Origin: a virus | Virus record (IMG/VR): IMGVR_UViG_3300042406_000564 | Span: 1 to 43,687 of that record | Strand: one strand, 5' to 3' | DNA: 43,687 bases | Shown here: positions 6,321 to 35,641 of the stretch, piece by piece | How the letters are laid out: each line of letters opens with the position of its first letter | Position numbering within the stretch: the first letter of the stretch is position 1 | Translations under genes and position numbers: made by a program | The notes under the pieces: model-generated | The model's database searches: none | Seen by the model: only the letters and a program-made list of their open reading frames with translations | Told to the model about the DNA's origin: nothing

Positions 6321-6329
6321 GGATGCCTA

Positions 6330-6358
6330 TTGACTGCGAGAGTCGATGGACGTAGGAA
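6330..6358 (+). promoter_or_regulatory. Promoter cassette P0 (diverged copy)
   Basis: TTGACT at 6330-6335 within CCTATTGAC, CGAT at spacer positions 9-12 (6344-6347), weak -10 TAGGAA at 6353-6358 with 17-bp spacing. The CGAT is in exactly the register seen in P1-P5. It would transcribe the HTH gene at 6391. Confidence 0.5.
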
Positions 6359-6390
6359 TGATGTAGAACGGTCACACGGGAGATGAAACA

Positions 6391-6615
6391 GTGGTCTACT
6401 TGTCCATGCAGGCAGCGGCGAAGCGGCTGGGGTGTTCCCCGCCAACAGTTCGCCGCATCGCGAAGGCAGAAGGTCTTGGCATCTTGGCTGACGGCACGCG
6501 AATCGTGGCCGTGGCTGCGACCGAACTGGCGTTGCTCAAGCCGCATATCCACGAGACGAGTGGGAACCCGTTGTGGATCGCTGCTGGCAAGAAGCCACGC
6601 CGACGAAAGAAGTGA
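6391..6615 (+). CDS. Small HTH DNA-binding protein (excisionase/MerR-like)
   Basis: 74 aa; GTG start ~9 nt after GGGAGA, with an alternative ATG at 6406. Residues 4-30 read LSMQAAAKRLGCSPPTVRRIAKAEGL in outline: a winged-helix HTH_17/MerR-type recognition helix. The basic tail is KKPRRRKK. It stands alone between a palindromic candidate operator and the duplicated intergenic element, at the head of the early region, so it is the best candidate for a regulator of the repeated promoters. Excisionase function is unlikely to be needed, since no integrase is visible. Confidence 0.65.
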   Translation: MVYLSMQAAAKRLGCSPPTVRRIAKAEGLGILADGTRIVAVAATELALLKPHIHETSGNPLWIAAGKKPRRRKK

Positions 6616-6617
6616 TT

Positions 6618-6764
6618 CCTATGTATATGGAAAACGAGACAGCCCCGATGAGGCTTCGCGGCGTCCCGTTTTCACGGCAGGCGTCGTAAGTCGTTGCGGG
6701 TGCGAGTGTTTTGCGTCGGGAGAATCGCCGCGAGAACCTCGTTTGCCGTGAGAACTTTTGGGAA
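6618..6764 (+). promoter_or_regulatory. Duplicated structured intergenic element, copy A
   Basis: Starts 2 nt after a stop codon. It begins with CCTATGTATATGG, then an imperfect long hairpin: GAAAACGaGAC pairs with GTCcCGTTTTC, enclosing GCCcCGA / TCGcGGC. It ends with a 23-nt block (6742-6764) identical to one in copy B. GAGAAT/GAGAAC/GGGAAC words recur at 6720, 6732, 6750 and 6760. Possible roles: structured RNA leader, transcription-termination site or replication origin. Confidence 0.65.
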
Positions 6765-6772
6765 CACGGATC

Positions 6773-6826
6773 AACGTGGACTTTTTGGGTACCCTCTGGT
6801 GCCAATGGGGTCCATATATCAAAGGG
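6773..6826 (+). promoter_or_regulatory. Shared intergenic element, copy 1 (possible promoter)
   Basis: AACGTGGACTTTTTG at 6773-6787, then 8 nt, CTGGT, 6 nt, GGGGT, 3 nt, TATATC (6815-6820) and AAAGGG. The same ordered blocks occur at 33105-33158. The TATATC could be a -10 box for the gene at 6855. Confidence 0.5.
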
Positions 6827-6854
6827 ACATTGACGCTGGTGCCACAATAGGCTC

Positions 6855-7100
6855 ATGGCACGCACGATCATCCACGTGAACCAACACGTGATCCGCCGCA
6901 ACGGCAAGACGGGCGACCGGCAGCCGGTTCTCACCGTGAAGCAAGGCCGCACGAACACCTACGCCACCTCCGTCGAGGTGCTGGGTCCGTGCCGCGTCGT
7001 GTATTCGCCCGACTGCCCGCTGCACTGCGGGGCGAAGGTGTGGCTGGAGACGGATTCGGAGGTGGTGCTGACCGGTTCCGCCCCCCCGCCCCGCCAATGA
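6855..7100 (+). CDS. Small conserved-looking hypothetical protein
   Basis: 81 aa: MARTIIHVNQHVIRRNGK start, a beta-rich middle (NTYATSVEVLGPCRVVYSP) and a short Pro-rich end. The composition suggests a small all-beta domain. From memory, similar proteins occur in many environmental phages without a known role. It lacks a clear SD; translation may begin close to a transcript 5' end set by the element at 6773-6826. Confidence 0.55.
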   Translation: MARTIIHVNQHVIRRNGKTGDRQPVLTVKQGRTNTYATSVEVLGPCRVVYSPDCPLHCGAKVWLETDSEVVLTGSAPPPRQ

Positions 7101-7150
7101 CCCGCGTTTTTCCCGAGAAAGACGGCAAAAAGATTTTTTTCTCCAGCCTA

Positions 7151-7206
7151 TTGACGCCAACAGCCGATACCCCTATCATACACAGGCCAACGCGGCGGAC
7201 ACCGCG
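7151..7206 (+). promoter_or_regulatory. Promoter/leader cassette P1
   Basis: TTGACG (7151-7156), 17-bp spacer with CGAT at 7165-7168, TATCAT (7174-7179). The A/T-rich upstream tract AAAAAGATTTTTTT resembles an UP element. The leader hairpin CGCGG-cggaca-CCGCG (7191-7206) starts ~5 nt from the predicted transcript start, followed by GGAG and the ATG at 7233. Confidence 0.85.
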
Positions 7207-7232
7207 AGGCGACAACAACGGAGAACGCGACC

Positions 7233-7526
7233 ATGGCTACGATCAACAACCTGCCCGAGACGATCACCAACGCGGCGATCCTTGATTTCACTGGTGCAGT
7301 GGGCTCATACAGCGGCAAGGCTCGCCGCTGCTGCTGCGGCTGCTGCGGCAACCACAGCGAAAGCCAGACAGCGATCACTCGGCAGATCAACAAGATCAAG
7401 CGGCTGGTCGCAGCCGGTCACGTCGCCGAGGTTGGGCCGAACAACATCGCGGTCGAAGTGATGAGCGGCGAAACCGACAACCACGGCGAACCGCAGGGCC
7501 GACTCTACATCGTCTACTTCAACTAA
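7233..7526 (+). CDS. Hypothetical protein with Cys cluster (CCCGCC)
   Basis: 97 aa with a GGAGAACG-type ribosome site. Residues 33-38 are CCCGCC followed by GNHSES, a dense thiol/histidine patch that could bind a metal. The rest is alpha/beta, ending in LYIVYF. First gene of the P1 operon. No family recognised. Confidence 0.5.
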   Translation: MATINNLPETITNAAILDFTGAVGSYSGKARRCCCGCCGNHSESQTAITRQINKIKRLVAAGHVAEVGPNNIAVEVMSGETDNHGEPQGRLYIVYFN

Positions 7527-7576
7527 CCAACCAACCGTACTTCACCACCAACACCACCAACACGGAGAACGCGACG

Positions 7577-7855
7577 ATGAACACCACAAGCAACACCAAG
7601 ATGGACAAGACCAAGTCGCTGATCGCGGATCACAAGTACCGGGCCATTAGCACGCTGTGCGATCTGAACGGAGTGTTCTCAGCGGCACTTGCCGAAGCAT
7701 CCAACACGGTCACTGCCAGCGAGTTGAACCTCGACCAGAGCGAGGCCTACGCCAAACTGATCGATCTGGAGTGGGAGATGGAGCGGCTTGCCAACTCGCT
7801 GACCAAGGCTCACCAAGCCGCGATGAAGATCATGGCCCGTAGTTCGGCTACCTGA
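7577..7855 (+). CDS. Hypothetical protein
   Basis: 92 aa, helical, with a Ser/Thr/Asn-rich N terminus. It uses the recurrent AACGGAGAACGCGACG ribosome site after a CACCA-rich spacer. Lies between the Cys-cluster protein and the cyclotransferase-like gene in the P1 operon. No motif found. Confidence 0.5.
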   Translation: MNTTSNTKMDKTKSLIADHKYRAISTLCDLNGVFSAALAEASNTVTASELNLDQSEAYAKLIDLEWEMERLANSLTKAHQAAMKIMARSSAT

Positions 7856-7888
7856 CTCACCACCACCACCCAAACGGAGAACGCGACG

Positions 7889-8275
7889 ATGATCCATAAG
7901 AACGTGATGCTTTTCGTGTACGGCACGCTGCGGAGCGATGCCAGCCCGTCCAACGCTCACCTGCTCGGCGGCATCCTGCTCAGCAGCCGAGCCACGGTGA
8001 GGGGCACGCTGTACGACTTCGGCCACTACCCCGGCATCGTGCTGAACGAGTTCGCGGGCGAAGTGGTCGGCGAGTTGTGGTCGGTGCCGAAGGCACAACT
8101 TAGCAGGCTCGATCACTACGAGGGCTCGGAGTACGCTCGCGTCGTGACCGAGGCCACCATGCCGGGCGGCAGCACCGTGACCGTGATGGTCTACGAGGCC
8201 TTCGACGTGGACGGTCTGGACAAGATTCCCGGCAACGATTGGACGAAGCGAGAAGTTTCCGAACAGCCCTATTGA
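7889..8275 (+). CDS. Gamma-glutamylcyclotransferase-like (AIG2/GGCT fold) protein
   Basis: 128 aa. The N terminus has the family signature LFVYGTLR (residues 8-15), then GTLYDFGHYPGIVL, VVGELW, and LDHYEGSEYARVV around residues 75-88. In that last motif the Glu is the usual catalytic acid. GGCT-fold enzymes release 5-oxoproline from gamma-glutamyl amines or related amides (for example BtrG and YtfP relatives). Within 2.5 kb lie an amidoligase and a class II glutamine amidotransferase, the classical partners of this fold, so it likely trims or transfers gamma-glutamyl groups made by the amidoligase. Its stop codon overlaps cassette P2. Confidence 0.8.
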   Translation: MIHKNVMLFVYGTLRSDASPSNAHLLGGILLSSRATVRGTLYDFGHYPGIVLNEFAGEVVGELWSVPKAQLSRLDHYEGSEYARVVTEATMPGGSTVTVMVYEAFDVDGLDKIPGNDWTKREVSEQPY

Positions 8276-8325
8276 CGCCCCGCGTCGATTGTGCTATCCT
8301 TCACCCGGTTGCGGCGGACACCGCA
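8272..8325 (+). promoter_or_regulatory. Promoter/leader cassette P2
   Basis: TTGACG (8272-8277) overlaps the stop of the upstream gene; CGAT at 8286-8289; TATCCT (8295-8300) after 17 bp. The leader hairpin is TGCGG-cggaca-CCGCA (8310-8325); the outer C-G pair of P1 is replaced by U-A, preserving pairing. Confidence 0.8.
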
Positions 8326-8351
8326 GCCAAAACCCAAACGGAGAACGAACC

Positions 8352-8780
8352 ATGCCACGCCGACCTGACCCCATGATGATGATGGCCGCGAACGCCGAGG
8401 CCTGCCCCGCACTCGACACGCTGTTACTGCTCGCACGCTACGCCATCATCACCCGTGCCGCACTGGAAATCGCACGGCTGCGAGGCGAGGCACCAATCAC
8501 CAAGGAGGATCGAGCGATGTGGACTACATTCGGAACCGCTGCACCGCAGCGGGTGGAAGTCGTGGAGGAGAAGCAACGAGGCACGACGATGATCCTGTAT
8601 CGAGGCAGCAACGCCTCGGTGCCAAGTGACACGCTGTTCGCAACGGAGTCGGATGCGTGGCTGGCGATGTATAGCAAGGCGGATGCCGAGATAACGGAAC
8701 TCTACAAACGGTCGGCAAGTCTCTACCGGGAGTTCTGCGAAGCACTCAAGCGGGAGCAGCAACAGGAGGACGCACGATGA
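8352..8780 (+). CDS. Hypothetical protein
   Basis: 142 aa from the ATG at 8352, preceded by AAACGGAGAACGAACC; the frame is open upstream but that part is leader. The N terminus is Met-rich (PMMMMAA). A helical C-terminal third ends in EALKREQQQEDAR. Coupled by ATGA to the next gene. First gene of the P2 operon; no family recognised. Confidence 0.55.
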   Translation: MPRRPDPMMMMAANAEACPALDTLLLLARYAIITRAALEIARLRGEAPITKEDRAMWTTFGTAAPQRVEVVEEKQRGTTMILYRGSNASVPSDTLFATESDAWLAMYSKADAEITELYKRSASLYREFCEALKREQQQEDAR

Positions 8781-8986
8781 GCAAGACAACGCTCTACATG
8801 ATCTCGTACCACGAGGAGGACACGCCAAGCGGAATCACGAAGGAGTGGTTCACCACGTTCAACAAGGCGATGAAGCGTCTGCGGCAACTCAAGTTGAGCG
8901 ACAGCCACGAGGTCAGGGTGCTTGAAGCGGAGCGAACGAAGGTCGGGCTGGTGGAGTTCCTCAACGTCTACGGAAAGATAGGGTGA
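8777..8986 (+). CDS. Small hypothetical protein
   Basis: 69 aa, starting in the ATGA overlap. Alpha/beta with many Lys/Glu (MISYHEEDTPSGITKEWF). No motif; P2 operon. Confidence 0.5.
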   Translation: MSKTTLYMISYHEEDTPSGITKEWFTTFNKAMKRLRQLKLSDSHEVRVLEAERTKVGLVEFLNVYGKIG

Positions 8987-8990
8987 CACG

Positions 8991-9167
8991 ATGATCGCAT
9001 GGATGAGGAGAATGATCGAGGCACACCGCAACACGTCGGAACTTGACCGGCTGCGGGCGACTGTGGAGGAACGCGACAAGCAGATCATGCTGCTTCAACT
9101 TCTCACTCGCAGGTTGCGCGACATCAACGCCGACCTCGACCATCGCATCACGGAGTTGCGGCGATGA
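8991..9167 (+). CDS. Small coiled-coil protein
   Basis: 58 aa (ATG 8991, TGA 9165-9167). A helical heptad region (LDRLRATVEERDKQIMLL) covers most of it. It follows the previous stop by 4 nt and couples by ATGA to the next gene, so it is a real reading frame despite its length. It could pair with the membrane protein encoded next. Confidence 0.55.
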   Translation: MIAWMRRMIEAHRNTSELDRLRATVEERDKQIMLLQLLTRRLRDINADLDHRITELRR

Positions 9168-9403
9168 TCCGCGACATCGTTCGCACCGCGTGCTTCATCG
9201 CCGCGATGGCTGTGGCCTGCTCGCTGCTGGTCGAGACTCGGCACCGGCTCGCCGTGATCGACCTTGCCCATCGGCAGGCTGTGGCACCAGCCCCCGTCTA
9301 CGCCACTACGCCGCCGCTGGCAGCCCCGACAACGGGGCCGCTGGCTCGGCTGGGGGCGGCGACGGTCGGGCTGGCAGACGCGGCTCTAGGGGTGATCCGG
9401 TAG
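9164..9403 (+). CDS. Small membrane-anchored protein
   Basis: 79 aa. Residues 5-24 (IVRTACFIAAMAVACSLLVE) form an N-terminal membrane segment; the rest is Ala/Pro-rich and likely periplasmic or extracytoplasmic. Last gene of the P2 operon. Coil-then-membrane pairs like this occur as spanin-type or envelope accessory proteins, but no direct sign of that role is seen. Confidence 0.5.
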   Translation: MIRDIVRTACFIAAMAVACSLLVETRHRLAVIDLAHRQAVAPAPVYATTPPLAAPTTGPLARLGAATVGLADAALGVIR

Positions 9404-9446
9404 CGATGCCTAAAAAACAGGGGTCAAAAAAAATCTTTGCAGCCTA

Positions 9447-9501
9447 TTGACGCCCCAAGCCGATACGTGTATCATTGGGACATGACGCGGCGGACACCGC
9501 G
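9447..9501 (+). promoter_or_regulatory. Promoter/leader cassette P3
   Basis: TTGACG (9447-9452), CGAT at 9461-9464, TATCAT (9470-9475), 17-bp spacing. An upstream tract with AAAAAACAGGGGTC and eight A's (9413-9433) is nearly the same as at P4. Hairpin CGCGG-cggaca-CCGCG at 9486-9501. Drives the amidoligase gene. Confidence 0.85.
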
Positions 9502-9532
9502 ACACGAGAACCAAAACGGAGAAGAACGATGA
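9482..9532 (+). CDS. Predicted 16-aa leader peptide of P3
   Basis: ATG at 9482 lies 7 nt after the -10 box, at the predicted transcription start, so the message would be leaderless. It reads MTRRTPRHENQNGEER and stops in TGA 9530-9532, overlapping the amidoligase start as ATGA. P4 has the same arrangement and P5 keeps RRTP with synonymous changes. Could equally be a by-product of a conserved hairpin. Confidence 0.35.
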   Translation: MTRRTPRHENQNGEER

Positions 9533-10362
9533 ACGCTGCCGAGATCACCTTTGGAGTTGAGATTGAGACGCACATCCCCTACGGCATCTGCCACGTCGGC
9601 GGGCACGGCTGCGGAATCCAAGTGCCGTGGCTCCCGGCTGGCTGGCTCGCCGATGGCGACCCCTCGATCCGCCCGCCCCGTGGCCGTCAGGGCTGCGAGT
9701 TCGTGAGCCCGGTTCTCAAGGGTGCCGAGGGACTTCGCCAGTTGGTCGAGGTGGTCGCCGAGATCAAGCGGCGTGGCGGCAAGGTGAACGACTCCTGCGG
9801 CATCCACGTTCACGTTGGATTCGACAAGAGGAACACGAAGGCTGTGGAGCGGCTGCTGTCGCTGGTAGCCAACCACGAAAAGGCCATCTACGCCGTGACC
9901 GGCACGAAGAACCGCGAGCGTGGCGTCGGCAGCCGTTACGGCACCTGCTGGTGCCAGAGCGTGAAGCAGTTCGGCAACGCTCGCAACGCGCTCACGAGCA
10001 GCCGTGGTCCCGCTCACTACCGATACAACGTGGTCAATCTGACCAGCCACAACCCGACCGCCGAGTTCCGTGCGTTCAGCGGCTCGCTGAACGCGACGAA
10101 GATCGTTGGCTACGTTCGGCTGTGCGTCGGGCTGGCACAGAAGGCAACCACGACGAAGCGTGCCTGCAAGTTCGACGCGGGCACCGGCCGGTTCAACCGC
10201 CGATTCAAGGAGGGCCGGGCGGAAGTGGCCCGCGTGTTCACCAGCCTCAAGTGGTTCGGCGGCAGCCCGCTCGGCGTGATCGAGGGGCCGGGCATCCCCA
10301 GCATCAAGGCCACGAAGAAGATCATGCGGGAACTGGCGAACCAGTACGACCGGCAGCCCTGA
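9529..10362 (+). CDS. Amidoligase-family enzyme
   Basis: 277 aa. The N terminus has FGVEIET (residues 8-14), then CGIHVHVG near residues 90-97, and later HYRYNVVNLTS...TAEFRAFSGSLN. These are the metal/ATP-site signatures of the putative amidoligase family, a glutamine-synthetase-like COOH-NH2 ligase. Such enzymes join a carboxylate to an amine using ATP. The family is typically encoded with GGCT-like cyclotransferases and class II amidotransferases, both present here. Likely role: amide or gamma-glutamyl modification of a small molecule, a peptide or a cell-surface component of the host. The substrate is unknown. Confidence 0.85.
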   Translation: MNAAEITFGVEIETHIPYGICHVGGHGCGIQVPWLPAGWLADGDPSIRPPRGRQGCEFVSPVLKGAEGLRQLVEVVAEIKRRGGKVNDSCGIHVHVGFDKRNTKAVERLLSLVANHEKAIYAVTGTKNRERGVGSRYGTCWCQSVKQFGNARNALTSSRGPAHYRYNVVNLTSHNPTAEFRAFSGSLNATKIVGYVRLCVGLAQKATTTKRACKFDAGTGRFNRRFKEGRAEVARVFTSLKWFGGSPLGVIEGPGIPSIKATKKIMRELANQYDRQP

Positions 10363-10381
10363 GACGGGGCGACCGACCAAC

Positions 10382-10408
10382 CCGCCAGCGGCACGTTGCC
10401 GCTGGCGG
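10382..10408 (+). terminator. 12-bp intercistronic hairpin after the amidoligase gene
   Basis: Perfect arms CCGCCAGCGGCA (10382-10393) and TGCCGCTGGCGG (10397-10408), loop CGT. No U-tract. Probably an mRNA end stabiliser or partial terminator between the amidoligase and amidotransferase genes. Confidence 0.55.
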
Positions 10409-10445
10409 CAGGACTCAAGAGACACCACCGATAGGAGACAGAACG

Positions 10446-11078
10446 ATGTGCGGCATTTTTGGATTCGTTGCGAAGCAGAACACCCGGATCAACCTGACCA
10501 CGCTGCGGCAGATCGCCACAGTGACAGAGCGGCGAGGCCCGCACGCGTGGGGCATGGCGTGGGTCGATGGTGCTGGCAAGGTGCGGACCTACAAGCAACC
10601 GGGGGCGATCACCGATTCGCTCGGGCTGCTGGCAATGGCGAAGGACGCACGGCTGCTCATCGGGCACTGCCGATGGGCGACGCACGGCGACCCGCGAACC
10701 AACACGAACAACCACCCGCACGACGGTGGCGACTCGTGGATCGTCCACAACGGAGTGATCGGCCACTACGAGGAGATTGCTGATCGGCACCGGCTTGACC
10801 TGCTCACCGACTGCGACTCCGAAGTGCTGGGGGCGATGATCCGCGACTTCCCCGGCAAGCCGATGGCACGTGCCAAGCGAGCCTGCACCGAAGCGATGGG
10901 CGACAACCCGTTCGCGATGATGGCACTGTGGCCCGACCGGCTGATCGCAGCACGGGCGAACAACCAGCCGCTACACGTGGGCGAGACTCGCGACGCGTTC
11001 TACCTTGCATCGCTGATCCACGGCTTGCCCGGTGTCGTGCAGCAACTGCCAAACGGCGAGATCGTTGAGTACGCTTGA
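10446..11078 (+). CDS. Class II glutamine amidotransferase
   Basis: 210 aa from the ATG at 10446; the same frame runs far upstream but overlaps the amidoligase gene and lacks an SD there. After Met removal Cys2 is the N-terminal nucleophile (MCGIFGF). RRGPHAWG, HCRWATHGDPRTNTNNHPH, IVHNGVIGHYEE and TDCDSE are the Ntn-type glutaminase signatures of GFAT/YafJ-like domains. It hydrolyses glutamine to ammonia and normally hands it to a partner synthase domain. No synthase domain is fused, so the neighbouring amidoligase is the natural acceptor. Length fits a stand-alone GATase domain. Confidence 0.88.
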   Translation: MCGIFGFVAKQNTRINLTTLRQIATVTERRGPHAWGMAWVDGAGKVRTYKQPGAITDSLGLLAMAKDARLLIGHCRWATHGDPRTNTNNHPHDGGDSWIVHNGVIGHYEEIADRHRLDLLTDCDSEVLGAMIRDFPGKPMARAKRACTEAMGDNPFAMMALWPDRLIAARANNQPLHVGETRDAFYLASLIHGLPGVVQQLPNGEIVEYA

Positions 11079-11087
11079 TCCACGTGC

Positions 11088-11123
11088 CGCCACTCCGCAC
11101 GGCTTGTGTCGTGCGGAGTGGCG
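11088..11123 (+). terminator. 14-bp intercistronic hairpin
   Basis: Perfect arms CGCCACTCCGCACG (11088-11101) and CGTGCGGAGTGGCG (11110-11123) with an 8-nt loop. No U-tract. Separates the amidotransferase gene from the small zinc-ribbon gene. Confidence 0.6.
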
Positions 11124-11152
11124 ACCACCACCTTCAACCCTCGGGGGCTGCG

Positions 11153-11374
11153 ATGACGAACGACCTAGTGACTGTGTGGCACTGCCCGACGTGCGGTGCC
11201 GAACTGCAAGCCGCAGGGATCGTGGAATGCGAAGGCGAGCGGATGCCGGTGTTCCAGTGCGACACGTGCGTCGTGACCAAGGACGTTTTCGGCGAGCCGT
11301 TCCGGGTGGCCCTCACGTTCGCGGTCAACGCGGCAGGCCAACCCGTGGACCCCGGCGATGACCAGATGCTCTAG
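11153..11374 (+). CDS. Small zinc-ribbon protein
   Basis: 73 aa from the ATG at 11153, chosen because the upstream part of the frame lies inside the hairpin. Two knuckles, CPTC (residues ~11-14) and CDTC (~37-40), form a treble-clef or ribbon zinc site. No catalytic residues. May bind DNA, RNA or a partner protein; function unknown. Confidence 0.55.
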   Translation: MTNDLVTVWHCPTCGAELQAAGIVECEGERMPVFQCDTCVVTKDVFGEPFRVALTFAVNAAGQPVDPGDDQML

Positions 11375-11415
11375 ACCCTTGAAAAACAGGGGTCAAAAAA
11401 AATCTGTGCAGGCTA

Positions 11416-11469
11416 TTGACGCCAACCGCCGATATGCTATCATAGGGACATGACGCGGCGGACACCGCG
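11416..11469 (+). promoter_or_regulatory. Promoter/leader cassette P4
   Basis: TTGACG (11416-11421), CGAT at 11430-11433, TATCAT (11438-11443), 16-bp spacing. The upstream tract is almost identical to that of P3. Hairpin CGCGG-cggaca-CCGCG at 11454-11469. Drives the 48-aa repeat protein gene. Confidence 0.85.
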
Positions 11470-11500
11470 ACAGGACAACGACCCGGAGAACGAACGATGA
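11450..11500 (+). CDS. Predicted 16-aa leader peptide of P4
   Basis: ATG at 11450 is at the predicted transcription start, 7 nt after TATCAT. It reads MTRRTPRQDNDPENER; TGA 11498-11500 overlaps the next ATG (11497) as ATGA. Same length, same start geometry and same terminal overlap as the P3 leader. Confidence 0.35.
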   Translation: MTRRTPRQDNDPENER

Positions 11501-11643
11501 ACGCCGCCAAGAAGATGACCCGCAAGGCTCGCTGGATCAAGACGCTGGAACTCCACGGTGCCAGCCAAGCCGCTCCCAAGGTCGCGAAGGCCTCGCCCCG
11601 CAAGGCTCGCTGGATTGCCAACCTCAAGATGCACGGCTGCTGA
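11497..11643 (+). CDS. 48-aa basic protein with an internal duplication
   Basis: ATG 11497 to TGA 11641-11643. It contains TRKARWIKTLELHG (residues 8-21) and PRKARWIANLKMHG (34-47), two copies of an RKARWIxxLxxHG unit joined by an Ala/Lys/Pro linker. pI is strongly basic. Directly behind the P4 leader with a GGAGAACG ribosome site, so likely well expressed early. The twin amphipathic basic helices suggest nucleic-acid binding or binding to a host protein; no known family comes to mind. Confidence 0.6.
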   Translation: MNAAKKMTRKARWIKTLELHGASQAAPKVAKASPRKARWIANLKMHGC

Positions 11644-11671
11644 ACCACCACCCCACAACGGAGACGAGACG

Positions 11672-11965
11672 ATGCACTGCGAAGAAAAGATTCTCAGCGA
11701 CTTCCGCGAGCGGATTGAGGCGATCATTCGCGGGCCGCACGCCCCGGTGTTCCAGCGGATGACCGCTGGCGGCACCACCGACTACGGCGTTCGGCACCAC
11801 GTGGCGGGCAAGGTGTTCACGCTTGCCCAACTCCGCGACACAGCCACGCGGCTGGAGTGGTTCGGCGTTTGCTCGATGACCAAGGCGATGCTGCTGCCGT
11901 CGCTGCTGGAGTCGGCGTACCAGTTCTGCAACGACGGCTCGCTGCCGCAAGAGATCAACGGTTGA
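11672..11965 (+). CDS. Hypothetical protein
   Basis: 97 aa from the ATG at 11672 after AACGGAGACGAGACG. Alpha/beta, with TDYGVRHHVAGKVFTLAQL in the middle and a helical end. Second gene of the P4 operon. No family recognised. Confidence 0.5.
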   Translation: MHCEEKILSDFRERIEAIIRGPHAPVFQRMTAGGTTDYGVRHHVAGKVFTLAQLRDTATRLEWFGVCSMTKAMLLPSLLESAYQFCNDGSLPQEING

Positions 11966-12001
11966 TTGTTCGGACTATCACCACCAACGGAGAACACGGC
12001 C

Positions 12002-12244
12002 ATGCTTCCCGCAACTCGGATGGACTTCAAGAAAATCAAGGACGCGATCAACAGCCTGTCGCGTCCCGACCAGCGAACGCAGCAGACAACCAAGGTTGGC
12101 GACAACCTTGCTGCGGTGGAGGCCACGCTCACGCTGATTGAAAGACTGTGCGAAGTGATTCGGCAGCAGGAGGAACTGCACCGCGAGCCGCGAGCCGCAA
12201 CGAAAAAAAATCTTGACAACCCTATTGACGGGGCAGGCCGATAG
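12002..12244 (+). CDS. Hypothetical helical protein
   Basis: 80 aa from the ATG at 12002 after ACGGAGAACACGGCC. Helical (IKDAINSLSRP, LAAVEATLTLIERLCEVIRQ), perhaps a short coiled coil. Its last ~10 codons overlap the -35 and spacer of cassette P5, so the promoter is embedded in its coding end. Confidence 0.5.
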   Translation: MLPATRMDFKKIKDAINSLSRPDQRTQQTTKVGDNLAAVEATLTLIERLCEVIRQQEELHREPRAATKKNLDNPIDGAGR

Positions 12245-12281
12245 CGATATCCTTCTGAGGTGCTGCGGCGAACGCCGCAGC
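12225..12281 (+). promoter_or_regulatory. Promoter/leader cassette P5
   Basis: TTGACG (12225-12230), CGAT at 12239-12242, TATCCT (12248-12253), 17-bp spacing; eight A's at 12203-12210 upstream, and an extra TTGACA at 12213. The hairpin is longer than in P1-P4: GCTGCGGC-gaac-GCCGCAGC (12262-12281). Drives the DUF932 gene. Confidence 0.8.
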
Positions 12282-12286
12282 GATGA
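12260..12286 (+). CDS. Predicted 8-aa leader peptide of P5
   Basis: GTG at 12260 is exactly 7 nt after the -10 box. It reads MLRRTPQR then TGA (12284-12286). Relative to P1-P4 the RRTP codons differ only at two third positions (CGA for CGG, ACG for ACA). Too short to trust alone. Confidence 0.3.
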   Translation: MLRRTPQR

Positions 12287-33158: not shown

Positions 33159-33327
33159 CGATTCACCGCAGGCACCCCGTAGGGGGGCCGCGTCGGATGG
33201 CGACAATCAGCAAAACCACTAGTAGACCCTGTAGGCGTGTGGCCGGGGGTTTATGGCCCCCCCACTCCACAGCCCTCCACAACGCGTTTCCCGGCCAAAA
33301 GCCACAAAACCCTCTGGATACCCGCCC
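33159..33327 (+). other. GC-rich leader region with short hairpins
   Basis: No gene seen. It holds CCCC-gta-GGGG (33175-33185) and GGGGG-tttatgg-CCCCC (33245-33261). If the element at 33105-33158 is a promoter, this is a ~165-nt 5' leader of the first ParB-like gene. Confidence 0.4.
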
Positions 33328-33963
33328 GTGAAGATCCGTGACCGCATACGCGAACTGAGACGTGTTCCCGCCAACCTGCTGGTGCCGAATCCGAAAAACT
33401 GGCGCACCCACCCCAAGGCACAGCAGGACGCACTCCGTGGCGTGCTGGCCGAGGTTGGCATGGCCGACGCCGTGCTGGCCCGCGAACTACCCGATGGGTC
33501 GCTCATGCTGATCGACGGGCACCTGCGAGCCGAGACAATCGCCGACGCCAAGGTGCCGGTGCTGGTGCTGGACGTTACCGAGGCCGAGGCTGACAAACTT
33601 CTCGCCACCATCGACCCGCTGGCGGCGATGGCCGAGACGGATGGTGCCAAGTTTGACGAACTTCTTCGCACGGTGAACACCAGTAGCGAGGCCTTGCAGC
33701 AGATGCTCGCTGCCCAACACGAGGATCACGTTCGTCAGCAACTCCGCGACATAGCCGCTGCTGAGGGCGACGAGCAAAGTGACGAGCAAGGCGACCCTGC
33801 GGACACCGGGTACGTGCAGTTCTCTGTTCCGCTCACCGCAGGTCAGGAGCATGACGTTCGCTCAGCACTGCGGCTGGCGAAGAAAGTGTTCGCCACGGAG
33901 TCGAGCGGCGAGGCACTTGCGCTCGCGGTAGCCGAGTGGCGTGACTCTCGGGGGTCGCAGTGA
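33328..33963 (+). CDS. ParB-like nuclease-domain protein
   Basis: 211 aa, GTG start. Residues 13-70 (VPANLLVPNPKNWRTHPKAQQDAL..VLAEVGMADAVLARELPDGSLMLIDGHLRAE) form the ParB/Srx N-terminal fold with the IDGHxRxE box. The helical C terminus lacks the usual ParB HTH. Phage-encoded ParB-like domains can be nucleases or regulatory NTPases. GTGATG junction with the PAPS-reductase-like gene. Confidence 0.82.
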   Translation: MKIRDRIRELRRVPANLLVPNPKNWRTHPKAQQDALRGVLAEVGMADAVLARELPDGSLMLIDGHLRAETIADAKVPVLVLDVTEAEADKLLATIDPLAAMAETDGAKFDELLRTVNTSSEALQQMLAAQHEDHVRQQLRDIAAAEGDEQSDEQGDPADTGYVQFSVPLTAGQEHDVRSALRLAKKVFATESSGEALALAVAEWRDSRGSQ

Positions 33964-35129
33964 TGGCAAAGGTAAGAAAGCAACGCCGCGTCGAGAAGTC
34001 GTGCTACGACTTGGCAGTGGAGCGCGTTGAGAAGTGCTTTGACCGATTCGACAAGGTGGTGGTGTCATTCAGTGGTGGAAAGGACTCGACCGCCTGCCTT
34101 CAGATCGCACTTGATGCGGCGACTCGTCGCAACTCGCTGCCGCTGGAAGTGGTGTCGTTTGACGAGGAGGCAATCCCGCCCGACACCGTGGAGTACATGG
34201 AGCGCGTCTCGCAACGCGGAGACGTGAACTTCCGCTGGTACTGCATCCCCATCGAACACCGCAACGCCTGTTCCGAGAAGCAACCCGTCTGGTACACGTG
34301 GGGCGAGGAGGACAGAGACAAGTGGGTTCGCGATCTCCCGCCGCAGGCCATCACAGACCTACCGGGGTTCAAGCGAGGCATGGCAATCCCCGATGCTATC
34401 CCGCTTATCTACGGGCCGAGCATGGGGAACGTGTGCGTCATCATGGGCATCCGCTGCCAAGAGTCCATGAGCCGGTACCGTGCCGTCGCCAGCAAGCCAG
34501 CCAGCGTGACGGATGATGCTTTTCTTGGTGCGTTTGAGGGGGCACGATGGATCACGAAGGCGTACCCGATCTACGACTGGTCGACGGACGATGTGTGGCG
34601 TGCGCCGGGGCTGATGGGCTGGGACTACAACCGTGCCTACGACGTGATGGAAAAAATCGGGATGCCTCGCAACCTCCAGCGTTGTGCGCCGCCGTTCGGC
34701 GAACAACCGATTCGCGGGCTGCACACCTTCAAGACGTGCTGGCCGGGGCTGTGGTCGAAGATGGTCGGTCGTGTAGCCGGTGCGGCAACGGCTGCACGGT
34801 ATGCGAACACGGGGCTGTACGCGTGCGGCTTGAGTGACGAGGACTTGCCACAGGGAAAAACTTGGCAGCAGCACACTCTTGACTTGGTGTCCAGACTTGA
34901 GGAGTCGGCCAAGCCAGAGGTGGCTGATGCCATCTCAAGCCTGATGGGGATGCACAGGAGCCGCACCAACGATGCACTGCCGGATGACGAGCCGCACCCG
35001 CTGAGTGGCTACTGCTGGAAGTTTATCTGCGTCGTGGCGAAGGTCGGCAGCAACAAGTTCGGCAGGCAGGCGCAGAAGGTGAACAACAAGGCCATCGCAG
35101 CCCGAAGAAAGAATGGAATCCTGTCGTGA
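33963..35129 (+). CDS. PAPS reductase-like PP-loop ATPase (IbrA/DndC-like)
   Basis: 388 aa from the ATG at 33963 (a GTG at 33960 is also possible). PP-loop SGGKDS at residues 37-42, then VVSFDEEAIPPDTVEYM, VIMGIRCQESMSRYR and YPIYDWSTDDVW: the adenine-nucleotide alpha-hydrolase core of PAPS reductase / DUF3440 / IbrA-type proteins. RCQES and CAPPFGEQ regions supply further conserved Cys/Arg. The related DndC makes DNA phosphorothioate, but IbrA itself has no settled activity. Flanked on both sides by ParB-like genes, one of them IbrB-like. Confidence 0.82.
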   Translation: MAKVRKQRRVEKSCYDLAVERVEKCFDRFDKVVVSFSGGKDSTACLQIALDAATRRNSLPLEVVSFDEEAIPPDTVEYMERVSQRGDVNFRWYCIPIEHRNACSEKQPVWYTWGEEDRDKWVRDLPPQAITDLPGFKRGMAIPDAIPLIYGPSMGNVCVIMGIRCQESMSRYRAVASKPASVTDDAFLGAFEGARWITKAYPIYDWSTDDVWRAPGLMGWDYNRAYDVMEKIGMPRNLQRCAPPFGEQPIRGLHTFKTCWPGLWSKMVGRVAGAATAARYANTGLYACGLSDEDLPQGKTWQQHTLDLVSRLEESAKPEVADAISSLMGMHRSRTNDALPDDEPHPLSGYCWKFICVVAKVGSNKFGRQAQKVNNKAIAARRKNGILS

Positions 35130-35641
35130 AAAACAAGCAGCCGCTGAATGAAGTCGAGTGGGTGAACCGCGATGCCATCGCCCCCAACGACTACAACCCG
35201 AACAAGCAGCCACCACCGGAACACCGGCTGCTCAAGGTGTCGATCCTTGAGGACGGATGGACACAACCAATCGTCGTGTTCGATGACGGCAAGGGCGGCA
35301 AGCCTGTGATCGTGGATGGCGAGCATAGGTGGCGAGTGTCAGCGGAACCGGAGGTTGCAAAACTGACCGGCGGCACGGTGCCGATTGTTCGCATCAAGGG
35401 CAACCGCGAGCATCGCATGATGTCCACCATTCGGCACAACCGCGCACGCGGCGAACACCACGTGCTGCCGATGGCCGAGATCGTTCGCACACTGCTGGAC
35501 GGCGGCATTGACCGCGATGACGTTCAGTTCCTGCTCCAGATGGAGGAGGAGGAAGTGGATCGCCTCGCCGAGCGTGCGGGGCTGCCCGATGTGGTTGCCC
35601 GCGAGGGCACCGAGTTCAACAGGGGATGGGTACCGGAATGA
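35126..35641 (+). CDS. IbrB-like ParB-domain protein
   Basis: 171 aa, GTG in the overlap with the PAPS-reductase-like gene. VNRDAIAPNDYNPNKQPP, QPIVVFDDG, VIVDGEHRWR and MMSTIRHNRARGEHHVLPMAEIVRTLL are typical of the IbrB branch of ParB-like proteins. Pairing with the upstream gene reproduces the IbrA-IbrB arrangement known from bacteria and many phages. Confidence 0.82.
   Translation: MKNKQPLNEVEWVNRDAIAPNDYNPNKQPPPEHRLLKVSILEDGWTQPIVVFDDGKGGKPVIVDGEHRWRVSAEPEVAKLTGGTVPIVRIKGNREHRMMSTIRHNRARGEHHVLPMAEIVRTLLDGGIDRDDVQFLLQMEEEEVDRLAERAGLPDVVAREGTEFNRGWVPE

Follow-up and report, generated by a model that had tools for sequence, protein, structure and literature searches.

Introduction

The excisionase-type winged-helix protein Cox of phage P2 also regulates early promoters. 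Ordinary sigma-70 promoters with an upstream (UP) element combine an A/T tract before the −35 box with TTGAC, a spacer of 16–17 bp and TATNNT, and MerR-type activated promoters have spacers of 19–20 bp with the regulator site between the two hexamers. The present study concerns a repeated early-promoter cassette, and the small winged helix-turn-helix (HTH) gene at position 6391 just upstream of it, in the IMG/VR virus record IMGVR_UViG_3300042406_000564. The whole stretch of 43,687 nt was analysed and is called the window below; all coordinates are window positions. Unlike an ordinary sigma-70 promoter, the cassette has an extra conserved CCTA before TTG, CCGATAGG in the spacer and a leader hairpin. 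It also differs from MerR-type promoters, as the spacers among the candidates were 15–17 bp, and untwisting of the MerR type is not implied.

In phage 186, Apl is described as an excisionase-type winged-helix protein that also regulates early promoters, with sites at pR-pL and att that are direct repeats spaced by one helix turn (PMC7498355). The window may resemble Apl and Cox in having a small, possibly Xis-like winged HTH, whose gene lies near an integrase in a number of relatives, and putative sites at early promoters. In contrast to Apl, the putative sites form an inverted pair with centres 12–19 bp apart at two to six early promoters, and the window yielded no integrase. The L5/TipsytheTRex repressor has two DNA-binding domains and is associated with operators and stoperators at more than 20 sites per genome (PMC9283540), with stoperators also present in short stretches between genes, outside promoters (PMC9283540). 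The likeness to the L5 type lies in the many phage-specific sites, including early lytic promoters, with one repressor, here a proposed one, for many sites, whereas the boxes seen here lay at promoters and the protein proposed to read them is a single winged HTH of 74 amino acids (aa). The SAS/ESAS elements of cluster K mycobacteriophages are a 13-bp repeat tied to translation starts (PMC3203893). The cassette is similarly repeated, phage-specific, absent from the host genome, placed before a subset of genes and partly an inverted repeat, but its conserved part is a promoter with a 5′-leader hairpin, upstream of the Shine–Dalgarno (SD) sequence. Finally, BldC, a chromosomal regulator of Streptomyces development, is a 68-residue MerR-like winged HTH with no effector domain that is reported to bind direct repeats as a multimer (PMC5859096). 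The HTH at 6391 likewise matches, weakly, a MerR-like single-domain fold; unlike BldC, it is phage-borne and its putative site is an inverted pair.

In its proposed action the cassette is comparable to the multi-operator control of L5-type phages and to excisionase-type regulators such as Apl. Because no sites were seen away from promoters, the candidate protein has one domain and the repeats are inverted, the cassette falls outside the L5-type and Apl families and is best classed as a phage early-promoter/operator array belonging to neither. A limited literature search yielded no publication dealing with promoters or gene regulation in phages of planctomycetes. Our overall reading, to which we assign a probability of roughly 55%, is that an operator read by a phage regulator, most likely the HTH protein, would coordinate the early operons of this phage.

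Architecture of the cassette in the window

The window contains exactly six TTGAC-N9-CGAT sites, all on the + strand (6330, 7151, 8272, 9447, 11416 and 12225), in agreement with the first-pass annotation made from the sequence by a model. The number expected was 0.38, and none of 100 shuffles reached six. CTA stands before all six TTGAC sites, and CTATTGAC occurs seven times against 0.37 expected, the seventh copy (12346) being within coding DNA. TATC was found at the right distance in five of the six sites and in none of 100 shuffles. An independent sigma-70-like promoter scan of the region returned five matches, which were exactly these five sites. The −35 and −10 hexamers of the five cassettes match the consensus at 9–10 of 12 positions, with spacers of 16–17 bp. 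The A tracts that had been reported upstream of four copies are present; the copy at 8272 is without one, and its upstream flank is the end of the gamma-glutamyl cyclotransferase-like (GGACT) gene, the stop codon of which lies within CTATTGA. The genes downstream of the five cassettes are 7233, 8352, 9529 (amidoligase), 11497 and 12336 (DUF932).

The full cassette consists of an A/T tract, CCTATTGAC, CCGATAGG, a −10 box and then a covarying 5′-leader hairpin whose GGACA loop is conserved. The first-pass annotation had captured the promoter, and the hairpin GCGGCGGACACCGC downstream of it had gone unnoticed. Its description of a TATCAT/TATCCT-like −10 box holds for five sites; the sixth, 6330, for which it had listed TAGGAA, has a poor −10 box, TAGGAA(T). 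Counting 6330 as an equal member of the set was not upheld: this site has neither an A tract nor a leader hairpin, CGAT is mostly not kept at the equivalent place in the orthologous HTH-gene promoters of relatives, and the site is the promoter of HTH gene 6391, distinct from the cassette. Judged from these features, the cassette is almost certainly real and should work as a promoter, and the earlier proposal of a multi-promoter early region is supported, with five full promoters predicted. The features are as follows.

6326..6358, + strand: HTH-gene promoter, CCTATTGACT-N17-TAGGAA, with one operator-like CCTATTG; CGAT at 6344 not conserved in orthologues
6391..6615, + strand: winged HTH protein, 74 aa, GTG start, MerR/Xis/BldC-like; proposed operator reader
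7127..7140, + strand: A/T tract of cassette 1, UP-element-like
7147..7179, + strand: core promoter of cassette 1, CCTATTGACGccaacagCCGATAccccTATCAT
7191..7206, + strand: leader hairpin of cassette 1 (gene 7233), CGCGG-CGGACA-CCGCG
8268..8300, + strand: core promoter of cassette 2, CGATT variant, −10 TATCCT, without an A tract; overlaps the GGACT gene end
8307..8328, + strand: leader hairpin of cassette 2 (gene 8352)
9426..9433, + strand: A tract of cassette 3
9443..9475, + strand: core promoter of cassette 3 (amidoligase gene 9529), −10 TATCAT
9486..9501, + strand: leader hairpin of cassette 3
11395..11402, + strand: A tract of cassette 4
11412..11443, + strand: core promoter of cassette 4 (48-aa gene 11497), 16-bp spacer, −10 TATCAT
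11454..11469, + strand: leader hairpin of cassette 4
12203..12210, + strand: A tract of cassette 5
12221..12253, + strand: core promoter of cassette 5 (DUF932 gene 12336), CCGATAG, −10 TATCCT
12261..12282, + strand: leader hairpin of cassette 5, with the stem retained and GAAC in the loop in place of CGGACA

Conservation of CGAT across relatives

Relatives, cited below by L and G numbers, were sampled in two ways, neither of which used CGAT as a criterion. In the first, 2.9 million viral contigs were scanned for the leader hairpin followed by an SD sequence; in the second, contigs bearing the HTH gene were scanned for an A/T-rich promoter followed by any strong hairpin. The hairpin-anchored sample comprised 59 distinct places, 40 of them with a promoter at the right distance and 19 without such a promoter. 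CGAT was present in 36 and CTATTG in 30 of these 40 promoters. The HTH-anchored sample had CGAT in 64 of 67 cassettes on the gene strand and in none of the 10 chance matches on the opposite strand. After near-identical copies were collapsed, 47 of 52 distinct candidates carried CGAT, and three of the remaining five are apparent false positives. The string conserved across candidates was CCTATTGAC ... GCCGATAGG, with a spacer of 16 bp in 40 of the 52 and of 17 bp in 10 (range 15–17 bp; 15–18 bp scanned).

A motif search in unrelated genomes, set beforehand as a test of the proposal, indicated that the motif is phage-specific: the cassette core matched three times in 392 planctomycete genomes, against two matches for a reversed-pattern control, and a host-wide promoter element was rejected on these counts. 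A looser pattern, counted from the listed matches in 49 planctomycete genomes, gave approximately 86 at the phage register versus approximately 110 with CGAT shifted by four bases. Two other patterns were set aside. A scan of IMG/VR with ATTGAC-N9-CGAT-TATC was uninformative, the matches listed (one per contig) being chance-like, and the strict CTATTGAC-N9-CGATA-TATC pattern matched two low-GC contigs only; near relatives have other −10 boxes.

The register of CGAT, which had been called invariant, is fixed in the window at 9 bases after TTGAC but floats by 1 to 7 bp among relatives, where CGAT starts 3, 8, 9 or 10 bases after TTGAC. Offsets of 3 and 9 even coexist within single phages (L282, L371 and L372). 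These data bear on whether CGATA might be a strict promoter element, contacted upstream of the −10 box, at about −20 to −16, by a host or phage-modified sigma region. Such an element could explain why the distance from the C of CGAT to the −10 box is 8 in 25 of the 40 hairpin-anchored cassettes, which is tighter than the distance to the −35 box. However, CGATA is shifted by 6–7 bp in the offset-3 type, even within one phage, and its slot may be filled by a palindromic sequence, even an unrelated one (see below). The modified sigma that had been offered as one source of the contact also found no counterpart, as no sigma-like gene was seen among the window proteins scanned and planctomycete genomes had no excess at the phage register. 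We therefore consider a strict promoter element improbable. The floating register and the lack of such an excess in host genomes make a sigma contact, in particular one at a fixed register, unlikely.

The likeness among cassettes might also reflect recent duplication of one stretch, with no selection on CGATA, and cassettes of one phage can indeed match over 60 bp and more. Nevertheless, CGATA is kept while the neighbouring spacer bases vary freely across phages with 56–72% amidoligase identity to the window, and the hairpin stems covary. Duplication by itself is scarcely credible as an explanation.

Geometry of the putative operator and the exchangeable slot

In the consensus, CGATAGG within the spacer repeats the CCTATTG over the −35 box in inverted orientation and matches it at six of seven positions, the single mismatch being the T required by the −35 hexamer. 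CTATYG pairs were inverted in 43 cases and direct in one. Within the window, the + strand carries CCTATYG at five promoter places and nowhere else, and all matches to TTGNC-CGAT-TANNNT in 15 whole relative records lie within cassettes. A GATA-N3/4-TATC dyad was also considered in the window; it is not kept in relatives with TATAAT and was dropped for CCTATTG/CGATAGG.

In sister cassettes, the same slot is occupied by a full palindrome, CCGATATCGG in L141 and L277 and CGATATCG in L294, whereas in L309 it holds the unrelated palindrome GTATTGCC-CGTC-GGCAATAC. The combination of a constant promoter with an exchangeable slot sequence resembles the operators of phage regulators, and the comparison suggests that the operator slot has been exchanged between phage clades. 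CGATA is probably the operator of a regulator and not a part of the promoter. The first-pass annotation had argued that ordinary −35/−10 recognition does not explain CGAT and that an added protein contact does; the former is supported, and contact by a phage regulator appears to be the best reading of the latter.

Other phage clades bearing the amidoligase or the hairpin have repeated early cassettes of their own (L133, L140, L213, L225 and others). These are GTCGGCAGATGCGTATAA in L133/L359, CTGATTC-N9-GAATCAG over the −35 box in L140, CTTGAGG...CATGGCTCATGTGTG with no clear −10 box in the Pirellulales prophages L213/L225/L148, and the CCGATATCGG type in L141.

HTH gene 6391 as the candidate reader

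The HTH gene is present in the CGATA-type records, except for a few short contigs (5–15 kb), and missing from each of the four palindrome-type records as well as from L199, L140, L139 and L207. Its AlphaFold model is a winged HTH (predicted local distance difference test score 79.5), with weak fold matches to RacA, MerR proteins, mycobacteriophage Pukovnik Xis, Tn916 Xis and BldC. CTATNG/CNATAG was found upstream of the HTH gene in 17 of 29 distinct regions, compared with 4%–5% of random stretches, and in none of six upstream regions from loci without a CGAT cassette in the HTH-anchored scan; L376, counted among the loci without a cassette, does have ACGATTG in a weaker promoter. In several relatives, this upstream half-site lies within the spacer and not at the −35 box. 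Furthermore, the CGAT offset follows the class of the HTH recognition helix, being 9 with PTVRR, 3 or 3 and 9 with ITVSR, and 10 with SAKTISR and CVKTVTR. This holds even at loci where the adjacent gene 6855 shows another grouping, as illustrated by L389 (83% identity for gene 6855, approximately 42% for the HTH). Co-occurrence, the half-site in its own promoter and the offset that follows the helix class make the HTH at 6391, as the earlier annotation had supposed, a sensible candidate.

A different possibility is that CGATA is the operator of another regulator, either an unrecognised phage repressor or a host factor, and that HTH 6391 is an excisionase-type passenger. The matches to the Pukovnik and Tn916 Xis proteins fit this account. 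A match to PF00589 (integrase) was obtained in 10 of the 15 records tested, and in the carriers the integrase lies approximately 1 kb from the HTH gene (relatives with an integrase at this distance that were compared with the window: G403, G404, G419, G434, G435, G437 and G441); L388 has a second Xis-like HTH between the two genes. No obvious CI-like repressor was seen in the open reading frames read near the integrase in four relatives, among which no profile search was made. In the window and L192, however, the PF00589 search found no integrase although both keep the HTH, which argues that the HTH is more than an excisionase; this state suggests that the lysogeny module was lost or that the record is incomplete. 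The box in the upstream region of the HTH gene itself and the offset that follows the HTH class do not favour a different regulator, and the lack of a motif excess in host genomes speaks against a host factor. Overall, this alternative is somewhat unlikely.

Several observations nevertheless count against the reading of CGATA as an operator bound by the HTH. The matches of the HTH by fold are weak, the best having E 0.02, and its gene stands approximately 1 kb from a divergent tyrosine integrase in relatives, as that of an excisionase would. L133 has the HTH gene and no CGATA; in L133/L359 the recognition helix is near that of the window, while the cassettes are without CGATA or CCTATTG. The distant HTHs of L378, L379 and L387 also go with no CGATA. 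Recognition helices differ widely among CGATA phages, the co-variation of HTH class and offset partly reflects shared ancestry, and two cassette types have a diverged CGAT (ACGAATG and ACGTTAG). In addition, the half-site centres are approximately 12 to 19 bp apart, a variation that a rigid dimer would not allow. Mainly because L359 combines a similar recognition helix with another cassette, we rate the HTH as reader of the CGATA operator at about even odds.

The candidate reader might instead be a MerR-like activator that binds the spacer and is required for early transcription, in keeping with its MerR-like fold and with a site between the −35 and −10 boxes. The spacers of 16–17 bp depart from the 19–20 bp generally known for MerR-type promoters, and an activator should be needless where the hexamers are near consensus and an A/T tract is present. 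Required activation is very improbable. For the same reason, activation in general is less likely, and repression is the favoured mode of action.

Leader hairpin

The hairpin lies 39–41 bases after the −35 T in each of the five cassettes, which by position is near +6 of the transcript. It is exactly GCGGCGGACACCGC in four cassettes and GCGGCGAACGCCGC in one. Among 15 distinct stems, 92% of cells pair and 12 cells are changed on both sides, compared with 3.3 in shuffles; these figures describe distinct stems, in rows chosen and trimmed to show variants, and not a random sample. The covariation score was 0.478, compared with at most 0.084 when the partner was slid. The conserved part is the loop C-GGAC-A. 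The window leaders fold into the hairpin with z-scores of −0.9 to −2.8, folding energy alone being modest evidence. Because it is common to phages with different operators (L277, L294 and L309), the hairpin is a separate module. Rfam contained no curated-family match, the sole sub-threshold match being at an unrelated place. Most simply, the hairpin would be a 5′ stabiliser of messages, and it is possibly a binding site for an RNA-binding protein. CsrA was considered for the GGA loop, but the A-N-GGA context known for its sites is not present.

Proposed mechanism

The cassette, with five copies in the window, appears to be common to phages related to planctomycete prophages. In our model, host RNA polymerase would read five strong early promoters, and CGATA(G) together with CCTATYG would form an operator with one half-site over the −35 box and the other between the −35 and −10 boxes. 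Binding of a phage regulator to this operator, most likely of the HTH of 74 aa encoded just upstream of the five cassettes, would occlude RNA polymerase, so that the five early operons are kept off or shut off together. The HTH may also control its own gene through the CCTATYG box in its promoter. In integrase-bearing relatives it could act in the lysis–lysogeny decision, and in the window as an early-gene brake. A bolder version is that, in a clade of planctomycete phages, an excisionase-type winged HTH was turned into a master early regulator that reads a CCTATYG/CRATAGG box floating within each early promoter, with a box geometry that co-evolves with the recognition helix, supplemented by RNA-level co-regulation through a protein that binds the GGACA-loop hairpin. 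Taken as a whole, this version is unlikely.

Virus, host and neighbouring elements

The window, a virus record, carries phage genes for replication, terminase, portal and capsid. Relatives of the amidoligase, among 84,980 bacterial and archaeal species, were mainly in Planctomycetota. The closest were all in this phylum, several of them in isolate chromosomes, and the host is therefore very probably a planctomycete bacterium. The DUF932 protein had no relative in the phage collection INPHARED. The early region holds together the GGACT (7889–8275), amidoligase (9529–10362) and class-II glutamine amidotransferase (10446–11078) genes, the last of which follows the amidoligase gene in many relatives; a gamma-glutamyl or amide tagging pathway is possible. 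CCGATAGG also occurs outside any cassette, at 10428–10435, where gene 10446 (glutamine amidotransferase) has its ribosome-binding region. At 33253–35641, a phosphoadenosine phosphosulfate reductase-like gene lies between two ParB-like proteins and possibly serves DNA modification.

A separate, strand-specific element, TGATTGTTCGG, is found at 11963–11973 and throughout L352–L389. In 694 kb of HTH-bearing phage loci, all 101 copies of GATTGTTCGG lay on the gene strand (0.66 expected per strand). In 64 of 82 distinct copies, the TGA of the element ends an open frame of 40 or more codons, compared with 8% for such a stop near random places. The element was not frequent in 30 planctomycete genomes. 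TGATTGTTCGG looks like a stop-codon-associated signal, probably one acting at the RNA level.

Significance

The cassette provides candidate strong promoters for use in a phylum where genetic tools are scarce. It also offers a candidate operator–regulator pair that is testable and whose natural co-variation spans approximately 30 phage records, as well as a covarying RNA leader element whose loop is conserved.

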